DNA of 11,909 nucleotides from Bacteroidota bacterium (lineage in GTDB: Bacteria > Bacteroidota > Bacteroidia > Bacteroidales > JADFUO01), in contig JADFUO010000188.1 in the NCBI GenBank assembly GCA_015222115.1, positions 1-11,909 of the forward strand, written 5' to 3'. Shown in pieces: positions 2,253-10,166 of this stretch. The stretch's first letter is position 1. Every line of letters starts with the position of its first letter. Made by a program: the position numbers and the translations under genes. Below the pieces are notes generated by a model. It was not told where the DNA came from and ran no database searches. It worked only from the letters and a program-made list of their open reading frames with translations.

Positions 2253-2277
2253 GCCGACGAAAGACTCGGCATGACAT
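2253..2277. repeat. REP-like palindrome upstream of the GIY-YIG gene
   Basis: GCCGA (2253-2257) pairs with TCGGC (2266-2270), and the unit ends in CTCGGCATGACAT (2265-2277). The same 13 bases recur exactly at 2720-2732 on the other side of the nuclease gene, in the same orientation. Confidence 0.7.
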
Positions 2278-2312
2278 TTTTTGAATTATGGTATAAATGG
2301 ATAAATTGTTTA

Positions 2313-2645
2313 ATGGAGTATTTTGTGTACATATTGGAATGCCGAGATAAGTCATATTATGTAGGGGTGACAAACGATCTGACTCGCAGAATAACAGAGC
2401 ATACATCAGGACTGAAGATTGATTGTTATACCTTTAAAAGAAGACCTGTTGTACTAAAATATTTCATAACTTTTGACAATCCGAATGATGCAATTTACTG
2501 GGAGAAAAAACTAAAAAAATGGTCGCGGTTGAAAAAAGAGGTGTTTATGAAGAAAGACTGGAAAAAACTTCACAATTTAGCCGAGTGTAAAAATGCAACT
2601 TCTCATAAATATTATGTAAATAAAGAGGAGGTAGAAAATAAATAA
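2313..2645 (+). CDS. Small single-domain GIY-YIG nuclease-like protein
   Basis: The protein has 110 residues. The GIY-YIG fold is recognisable: FVYILEC at 4-10 takes the place of GIY, YYVGVT at 15-20 the place of YIG, then NDLTRRITEH (21-30) carries the catalytic-type Arg and the His, and IYWEKKLKKW (61-70) carries the metal-binding-type Glu64. This matches the short stand-alone GIY-YIG family (UvrC N-terminal-like), whose members often have about 80-110 residues. An upstream in-frame start at 2175 was rejected because it would translate the palindromic repeat, and homologues begin with M-x-Y-V-Y-I-L. The tail after about residue 92 is poorly conserved in type. The gene is bracketed by REP-like palindromes on both sides, which suggests a mobile or repeat-linked unit. 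Its DNA target is unknown. Confidence 0.85.
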   Translation: MEYFVYILECRDKSYYVGVTNDLTRRITEHTSGLKIDCYTFKRRPVVLKYFITFDNPNDAIYWEKKLKKWSRLKKEVFMKKDWKKLHNLAECKNATSHKYYVNKEEVENK

Positions 2646-2646
2646 T

Positions 2647-2785
2647 ATGCTTCGACTTCGCTCAGCATGACAGCTTTGATTGGTCATCTTGAGCGAAGAC
2701 GAAAGATGCCTCGGCTATGCTCGGCATGACATCAGTCACCCAGAGCGGAGTCGAAGGGTGAGCAGAGTCGAAAGACTCATGATGA
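2647..2785. repeat. Cluster of five REP-like palindromes
   Basis: The cluster begins two bases after the nuclease stop codon. Units: 2647-2672 (ATGCT/AGCAT arms, ending CAGCATGACA); 2683-2710 (CATCTT 2685-2690 with AAGATG 2703-2708, opposite orientation); 2706-2732 (ATGCC/GGCAT arms, ending CTCGGCATGACAT); 2735-2761 (TCACCC 2736-2741 with GGGTGA 2756-2761, opposite orientation); 2765-2778 (GAGTC, loop GAAA, GACTC). They share the core GAGCGAAGTCGAA or its complement. This sequence type is scattered in many Bacteroidota genomes from my recall; its copy number here cannot be seen. Confidence 0.75.
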
Positions 2786-2939
2786 CGATTGTTTTGGGAT
2801 AAATGGTTATGACAGAAGAATGAAACCTGAGACTTTAAACTGGCGAATGTTACTGCTACTTTATTTTTTATCATTCGATATTTATCATTTAAAATTCTAT
2901 ATTCATTATTCAATAGATAATAATCAATATTCATTAATT
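2786..2939. other. AT-rich low-complexity spacer before the rdgB 3' end
   Basis: From about 2868 to 2939 the sequence is a degenerate series of ATTCATTATTCAATA / TAATCAATATTC words, a common type of intergenic drift repeat. No gene and no clear terminator is seen between the convergent GIY-YIG and rdgB genes. Confidence 0.5.
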
Positions 2940-6480: not shown

Positions 6481-6567
6481 ATGATAATACGCAACATTCC
6501 TCCGAAGGCTTGTCTATACACAAAAGTATGGGAGAGAGTTTAAAGCACTAAAAAACAAAAAACAAAA

Positions 6568-6652
6568 CTTGTCCGTCCATACGGATTCCTTTCAGTCATA
6601 TGAAGCGAAGCAAACGACACGAAGTTAGTACGTATGTATCCGTATGGATGGA
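6568..6652. repeat. Palindromic repeat element, copy 1
   Basis: The outer arms are TCCGTCCATACGGAT (6572-6586) and ATCCGTATGGATGGA (6638-6652), pairing at 14 of 15 positions around a 51-nt interior. The left part (6568-6613, with the GAAGCGAAGC word) occurs again in inverted orientation at 10110-10155 with one base difference. This is a dispersed, REP/MITE-like element. Confidence 0.8.
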
Positions 6653-10094: not shown

Positions 10095-10155
10095 TCCATC
10101 CATAGAGAATTGCTTCGCTTCGTATGACTGAAAGGAATCCGTATGGACGGACAAG
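10095..10155. repeat. Palindromic repeat element, copy 2 (inverted)
   Basis: The reverse complement of 10110-10155 matches 6568-6613 at 45 of 46 positions. The other arm, TCCATCCATA (10095-10104), can pair with 10142-10151 at 9 of 10 positions. The interior is shorter than in copy 1, so the copies differ by an internal deletion or insertion while the arms are kept. Confidence 0.8.
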
Positions 10156-10166
10156 TTTAGAAATTA

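Follow-up and report, generated by a model that had tools for sequence, protein, structure and literature searches.

Why should a small nuclease gene sit inside a cluster of short palindromic repeats? The question is raised by a GIY-YIG nuclease gene on contig JADFUO010000188.1 of a Bacteroidota bacterium (assembly GCA_015222115.1). The window referred to below is the whole stretch that was analysed, 11,909 nucleotides, which is one contig of a draft genome (2.3 Mb, 534 contigs, 83% complete). Repetitive extragenic palindromes (REPs) are among the best-known bacterial repeats. The answer proposed here is that the gene and its palindromes probably belong to a single element: a GIY-YIG nuclease associated with REPs, which would parallel the REP/RAYT system (REPtron) but with an unrelated enzyme. 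An earlier note on the window had suggested a GIY-YIG enzyme in a RAYT-like role. Local enrichment of the repeats, genome-level counts and an insertion polymorphism now support that suggestion, with cutting and movement as predictions from it.

The locus

The gene and the repeat units around it are as follows.

2253..2276, minus strand: u1, upstream unit, GTCA tag facing the gene (sequence; direct repeat 2265-2277 = 2720-2732)
2313..2645, plus strand: GIY-YIG nuclease gene, 110 aa, single domain
2647..2672, minus strand: u2, downstream unit, tag outward (sequence; direct-repeat, core-match and consensus scans)
2673..2682, no strand: 10-nt spacer GCTTTGATTG between u2 and u3, which form a head-to-head dimer
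2683..2708, plus strand: u3, downstream unit (core-match and consensus scans)
2706..2731, minus strand: u4, downstream unit (sequence; direct-repeat and consensus scans)
2735..2760, plus strand: u5, downstream unit (core-match and consensus scans)
about 2760..2787, minus strand: u6, downstream unit, degenerate (sequence; core match)

Reading the sequence bears out the earlier description of a 110-residue, single-domain GIY-YIG gene with one palindrome upstream and five downstream, and the 13-bp direct repeat CTCGGCATGACAT is indeed exact at 2265-2277 and 2720-2732. The first downstream unit had been placed two bases after the stop codon; the actual gap is one base (u2 starts at 2647). Downstream units do occur in both orientations, with strands -, +, -, +, - for u2 to u6. 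All six units read GTCA, and the tag context is TGTC or CGTC in four of them, GGTC in one and AGTC in one.

The clustering is unlikely to be a matter of chance. With up to three mismatches, GTCATCNTGAGCGNAG is matched six times in the window when 0.31 matches are expected, and six was reached in none of 200 shuffles. Four of the six (2656-2750) are directly 3' of the gene and two (6595, 10113) are inside a different inverted repeat. The latter is 49 nt long (6565-6613 / 10110-10158), is 98% complementary, contains GTCATAyGAAGCGAAG and is possibly another GTCA-tagged repeat family. Genome-wide, GAGCRNAGTCGAA with at most one mismatch has 26 matches, as against seven for a reversed control pattern, and four of the 26 are within 130 bp of the window gene. 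A head-to-head dimer similar to u2-u3, with the near-identical 10-nt spacer GCTTTAATTG, is present at G000:C273 (L025), and there is no GIY gene in that locus.

The protein matches PF01541 with 63.2 bits (curated cut-off 22.6). In an alignment of 28 family members Y6, Y16, G18, H30 and E64 are invariant and R26 is present in at least 90%; these are presumably the catalytic residues of a GIY-YIG nuclease. An AlphaFold2 model (28-row alignment) has a mean pLDDT of 88.9. Used as a Foldseek query, it matches the UPF0213 structures 1zg2 and 1ywl at E below 0.001 and, more weakly, Slx1 entries (E 0.002-0.02) and the UvrC N-domain (E 0.24). NCBIfam gave no match at E up to 0.001. The single-domain fold and the GIY-YIG residues are thus common to the window protein and the small UPF0213/COG2827 proteins. 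However, YhbQ-like members of that group (Clostridia L047 and L048, Cupriavidus L238; assigned by eye) have no such repeats in the flanks examined, so the link with repeats may belong to particular subfamilies.

Association of the genes with the repeats

Are the repeats a feature of this locus or of this kind of gene? A genome scan supplied 33 relatives, and a class-wide profile search matched 119 of 198 genomes at E up to 1e-10. Family A, as used here, is 86 genes (86 distinct proteins) with at least 95 profile bits, and includes, among the matches listed, most but not all of the strong ones. The local test was applied to the 82 that have at least 100 bp on both sides, by scanning 300-bp flanks for the core TGAGC N2-3 GTCGAA. 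An exact core is present beside 42/82 family-A genes (on both sides in 22) and 1/445 control genes of the same loci. Allowing one mismatch raises these counts to 56/82 (both sides 41) and 17/445 (both sides 0). Counted by genus label, some of which may coincide, the exact core is found in 28/45 and the one-mismatch core in 35/45. The earlier note had made its proposal depend on such enrichment beside GIY-YIG genes, and the enrichment is there.

It does not extend to two other kinds of gene. Neither the exact nor the one-mismatch core is found near any of 26 Y1/RAYT-type (Y1_Tnp) genes. These represent the 30 best-scoring loci returned, less four that were too near a contig end. A different GIY-YIG group, the tRNA-type genes, has the core in 1/20. 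A test that uses no motif compares the two flanks of each gene for their best inverted match; this is above the 95% quantile of 400 control genes in 48/84 genes and above the control maximum in 17/84. Many of the core-less genes have other GTCA-tagged types, for example TGTCACTTCGAGCGAAGTCGAGAAGTG or the Flavobacterium CACTTCGAGTG / TATCGAGAA type. There is also an orientation bias in family A, in that the nearest unit has its tag outward in 43/52 cases upstream and 29/45 downstream.

Tag density was considered as a further measure. YGTCA per 600 bp is raised in family A (3.47, n=77), in Bacteroidota COG2827-type genes (4.29, n=21, which is 27 minus six loci that were YhbQ-like or fragments) and in the plasmid-collection loci described below (4.47, n=19), compared with 1.37 (n=267) and 2.56 (n=157) in controls. 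It is not raised near Y1_Tnp (1.28, n=25) or tRNA-type GIY genes (1.40, n=20). However, permuted control words are raised near GIY genes too (e.g., 2.52 vs 0.89), and for that reason the measure was dropped as main evidence.

The association is also visible in whole genomes. At least four exact motifs are carried by 43/57 genomes with a family-A match (E up to 1e-22), by 27/62 with a more distant match only and by 14/79 without a match at E up to 1e-10. Reversed-pattern counts average 0.5-0.7 per genome. Therefore, the repeats are not equally frequent in genomes that lack the gene, which the earlier note had named as an outcome that would speak against it. The link is an enrichment rather than exclusive. 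Strong Y1_Tnp makes little difference among family-A genomes: at least four motifs are found in 78% of the 40 that have it and 71% of the 17 that do not.

Structure of the repeat unit

What is the repeat? Among 181 distinct units close to family-A genes, Watson-Crick pairing is seen in 75-85% at each of the four stem positions outside the GAG..TCGA core, compared with 26-47% when partners are dealt at random. Several pair types occur in each of stem pairs 1-4; pair 3, for example, is CG in 49, GC in 42, TA in 37 and AT in 26. The units are hairpins with covarying stems. The conserved core has no canonical pairing, and GTCA stands eight bases before GAG in 78/181 units of relatives. The word palindrome in the earlier note is therefore valid in the sense of an imperfect hairpin unit, because the stems covary across relatives. 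Folding energy adds little to this, since single units fold no better than shuffles: z-scores for u2 and five single units from relatives are between -0.13 and 0.80. Values are -1.4 for u1 with flank, -1.8 for the u3-u4 pair and -3.1 for u5-u6. A strict tagged-hairpin scan finds units near only 5/82 family-A and 1/21 Bacteroidota COG2827-type genes, their stems or loops being irregular. Rfam has no family match over positions 1970-2950 of the window at E up to 5.

Repeat type follows the enzyme clade

One aspect goes beyond what the earlier note proposed. Across Bacteroidota such genes are accompanied by GTCA-tagged hairpin repeats, and this pairing is clade-specific, with repeat type tracking enzyme clade. 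On a tree of the 86 family-A proteins (104 columns; 70 rows labelled by repeat type, 16 not), repeat type changes 15 times. The shuffled mean is 39.5, and none of 200 shuffles was as low. What if this merely reflected host ancestry? Because the test must separate pairing from ancestry, labels were also permuted only within the eight genomes whose labelled copies differ in type. No arrangement gives fewer changes than the observed 15, and 2/1152 give as few. The window gene itself fits two types equally well and therefore carries no weight in this test.

Presence, absence and copies

The site of the gene in close relatives involves these further features.

971-1975: D-Ala-D-Ala ligase gene, upstream neighbour of the GIY-YIG gene
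2256..2264: 9-bp direct repeat GACGAAAGA, left end of the polymorphic segment
2265..2706: polymorphic segment, 442 bp (half of u1, the gene, u2 and most of u3), absent in G198
2698..2706: 9-bp direct repeat GACGAAAGA, right end of the polymorphic segment
2940-3524, minus strand: Ham1-like gene, downstream neighbour of the GIY-YIG gene

Two drafts from the same genus are informative. In G199 the interval between the two neighbour genes contains neither the gene nor the repeats. G198 keeps the repeat cluster without the gene, and the part that is missing there, window 2265-2706 (442 bp), lies between two copies of GACGAAAGA. In a third draft, G200, there is no match to the neighbour gene, so the site is not visible. 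By profile none of these three drafts has a family-A gene (best E 1.9e-11, 5.4e-11 and 1.7e-7).

A second case comes from Shinella. Strains L221 and L225 have a relative of the gene with four CGTC REPs. In five other strains examined (L239-L243) the gene is absent from that place; four have no tagged hairpin there and L243 has one that is CGTC-tagged. In Azospirillum lipoferum the gene is annotated between sufB and sufC, and the unannotated coding sequence flanking it in Shinella PSBB067 (L231) resembles, by reading, a sufB/sufC junction. A search for another empty site, in Rhizobium CIAT894, failed: apart from the query there was one record, which matched 3% of it. Insertion polymorphism, the absence of which the earlier note had counted against its proposal, is thus seen at the window site and for the Shinella relative.

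Some genomes have two copies. Those of G128 match at 86% over some 487 bp, and the likeness runs from about four bases before the upstream GTCA tag to a downstream repeat, with one contig ending 25 bases later. The two in Flavobacterium xinjiangense have about 560 bp around the gene in common (84%).

The genus of the window genome provides two separate observations. The repeat cluster of G198 contains a BrnT toxin / CopG antitoxin pair (L186 2259-2922; PF04365, PF12441) where the window has the GIY gene. A second GIY-YIG subfamily is represented by L215 (G199), which is cut by a contig end, and L218 (G198), seemingly a remnant; each is beside a GTCATCC..- or GGGATGACA-type repeat.

A possible mechanism

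How might such an element work? The nuclease would recognise the hairpin, with its tag, variable stem and conserved GAG..TCGA core, in DNA that is single-stranded or extruded as a cruciform, and may cut at or near the GTCA tag of the folded repeat. By the titles of the Foldseek entries Slx1 acts on branched DNA, so a hairpin or cruciform substrate would fit, and this is the basis on which cutting at the tag is proposed. Cutting could then spread both the nuclease gene and gene-free repeats by excision and insertion. Alternatively, a break might be repaired by copying the unit into a different cluster of repeats. In the window the join falls within repeat units, between 9-bp direct repeats, which suits repeat-targeted copying.

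Several observations weigh against a single element of this kind. Cutting, binding and movement are predictions. The difference at the window site may be a gain or a loss, and the 9-bp direct repeat at the join, itself part of the repeat units, may be a target-site duplication or a product of repeat-repeat recombination. The sole upstream unit, u1, has its tag pointing inwards. A stable hairpin was the initial idea, and it gave way to the covariation test when single-unit folding energies proved no better than shuffles. Among family-A genes, 26/82 have no core in 300 bp even with one mismatch. A second control set, which has longer genes and includes plasmid loci, has a one-mismatch core in 35/257, two of them on both sides.

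The genome-level and tree results have weak points of their own. Without a profile (A2) match at E up to 1e-10, 7/79 genomes nevertheless carry at least 10 motifs: G017 has 168, G040 216, G047 78, G064 27, G097 18, G133 18 and G154 13. In motif-rich, match-free genomes such as G017, G040 and G047 the enzyme may have been lost once the repeats had spread, it may be hidden by assembly gaps, or an enzyme not seen here may be at work. The tree is based on 104 columns, 10/83 inner branches are starred, and 16/86 genes, including that of the window, have no single repeat type. Furthermore, the motif and repeat-type patterns were written after some sequences had been seen, and the repeat types were defined after the flanks had been inspected.

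Comparison with known systems

The closest parallel is the REP/RAYT (TnpA-REP) system, including REPtrons and REPINs. As in the window, the gene for a small DNA-processing enzyme is framed by short palindromes, which are also dispersed and occur as inverted dimers without the gene (PMC2817692, PMC3116915 and PMC3733652). However, the enzyme here is a GIY-YIG nuclease rather than an HUH/Y1 transposase, the tag is GTCA (C/TGTC) rather than GTAG, and the Y1 genes examined carry no such units (0/26). In comparison with insertion sequences, the outward bias of the tags might correspond to terminal inverted repeats, but the upstream side of the window gene does not conform.

GIY-YIG homing endonucleases are mobile single-gene nucleases of the same superfamily. 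In contrast to these, the window gene is not in an intron and is tied to dispersed palindromic repeats instead of a single conserved site. The gene-free site in G198 may be the empty site of a homing enzyme, in which case the nuclease would cut it.

A second parallel lies in the CGTC REPs. An associated enzyme, RAYT, was described for GTAG-class REPs in 2010 (PMC2817692), whereas a 2013 survey of CGTC REPs concluded that no dedicated transposase was apparent (Di Nocera 2013, PMC3733652). CGTC REPs (including Neisseria dRS3 and Rickettsia RPE-4/RPE-6) resemble the units here in a C/TGTC tag followed by AT in most units (in the window four of six read TGTC or CGTC), in head-to-head dimers and in dispersed copies. 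The stems may differ. CGTC REPs have a stem of 8-9 bp and a loop of 4-5 nt, whereas family-A units have four covarying outer pairs followed by the non-canonical core. Window units have imperfect stems and no CCA tail, which is present in many COG2827-type loci.

Do CGTC REPs have a GIY-YIG gene as well? A more distant, COG2827-like subfamily is found in 34 plasmid records, including Sinorhizobium meliloti, A. lipoferum, Novosphingobium aromaticivorans and Neisseria, all four of which are named as CGTC REP hosts in PMC3733652. In these hosts canonical CGTC REPs flank the GIY gene on either side. The loci scanned came from 18/34 of these records and 2/5 from a second listing; leaving out a YhbQ-like Cupriavidus gives 19. 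A strict CGTC/TGTC-tagged hairpin is present on both sides in 11/19 loci and 1/257 control genes, and on either side in 13/19 and 24/257. All 13 are Pseudomonadota. The arrangement of a GIY gene bracketed by tagged repeats therefore also holds for CGTC REPs in that phylum. The remaining six were judged by eye. Tagged repeats of other kinds are present in the Planktothrix, Spirosoma and Sphingomonas parapaucimobilis loci, those of S. parapaucimobilis having the same core as the window; two rhizobial loci have an apparent CCTC-tagged unit and a Methylobacterium locus has a different repeat.

Perhaps, then, small GIY-YIG nucleases are the missing dedicated enzymes of (C)GTCA-tagged repeats in general, from the Bacteroidota GAGCnnnGTCGAA type to the CGTC REPs of rhizobia, sphingomonads and Neisseria, and constitute a new class of minimal mobile element. 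The balance tips slightly in favour of this wider proposal. The minimal element would be one nuclease of roughly 100 aa plus hairpin ends, with gene-free repeats as passive copies. If true, the open question on CGTC REPs could be tested directly, since the proteins have only about 100 residues and the substrates would be short oligonucleotides. Many genes annotated only 'GIY-YIG nuclease family protein' or 'excinuclease ABC subunit C' could then be assigned a likely function, and a further role would be added to homing and repair for this nuclease fold.

A link between GIY-YIG genes and REPs was not found among the matches listed in open-licence PubMed Central; preprints and subscription papers are outside that scope, so novelty is not proven. 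The only paper with both 'GIY-YIG' and 'extragenic palindrom' (PMC9465073) has them, in the passages retrieved, as separate entries of gene lists and references. 'GIY' is not in the main text of the 2013 survey, a 2025 REP survey (PMC12306157) or a 2024 review of MITEs (miniature inverted-repeat transposable elements; PMC10969869). A search of open-licence PubMed Central for the letters of the repeat matched a single, apparently unrelated paper.

Other explanations

The strongest rival is a free-standing homing endonuclease that lands in REP clusters, where the repeats would be its target and would be spread by something else. In favour of it, the gene is surrounded by a cluster of repeats and the join falls between two of them. 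GIY-YIG domains are common in homing enzymes, and a different GIY-YIG subfamily, found beside tRNA genes with duplicated tRNA pieces, is homing-like. However, homing by itself does not account for the match between repeat type and enzyme clade inside one genome, or for the two G128 copies that are alike from near the tag. In addition, the obvious candidate for another enzyme, Y1_Tnp, has the core in 0/26. It is an unlikely explanation, though one to be taken seriously.

Could the gene instead be a domesticated host repair nuclease, flanked by terminators or regulatory hairpins that evolved with it? Its fold is similar to that of UPF0213 and, less closely, to those of Slx1 and UvrC. Caulobacter crescentus is reported to have three COG2827 genes, one with an SOS box (PMC1839093). 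Nevertheless, presence or absence between close relatives, copies at two places in one genome, gene-free repeat copies elsewhere and the orientation bias of the tags make this improbable.

Passive hitch-hiking is a shade less probable again. Repeat-rich intergenic spots would tolerate insertions and small mobile genes would accumulate there, as the BrnT/CopG cassette in the same cluster of G198 illustrates. But Y1_Tnp genes (0/26) and tRNA-type GIY genes (1/20) have not accumulated near the core as family A has (42/82), and the clade-specific pairing seen in the within-genome permutation strains the idea further.

Least probable of all is that RAYT/Y1 transposases mobilise the repeats with the GIY gene as a bystander. 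Bacteroidetes do have RAYT/Y1 subclasses 2.4 and 2.6, and Y1_Tnp is matched in 143/198 sampled genomes. Beside Bacteroidetes subclass 2.6 genes, atypical secondary structures are reported that recur at other places in the genome (PMC6006769). But no core is within 300 bp of the 26 Y1_Tnp genes (26 of the 30 best-scoring loci returned), the single Y1_Tnp locus of the window genome has none of the patterns scanned for and the motif richness of family-A genomes is independent of strong Y1_Tnp.

Other small GIY-YIG genes and hairpins

In 12/16 loci scanned for the tRNA-linked subfamily (e.g., MEYFVYILES..GRLYKGQTSD), a complete tRNA gene lies no more than about 300 bp away, whereas 0/20 family-A loci scanned have any tRNA. 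Its loci are L002 (own genome, C139), L050, L052-L054, L056, L057, L059-L062 and L216, and also L058 and L063. Duplicated tRNA pieces are often present on both sides, and L062 has four tandem copies. The subfamily looks like a tRNA-targeting homing element. No paper on tRNA-linked GIY-YIG genes stood out among the matches listed in open-licence PubMed Central. Small GIY-YIG genes can also be clustered, with three matches in L144 and four in L055.

Two further features of the window lie upstream of the gene. A 24-nt inverted repeat, AACATTCCATTTCT.., at 2042-2129 is perhaps a separate hairpin element; it also adjoins the repeat cluster in G198. The segment at about 2136-2190, around GTCGGACAAGTGTAGCGAGTGCG, has by eye a look-alike in L023, beside a palindrome elsewhere in the genome.
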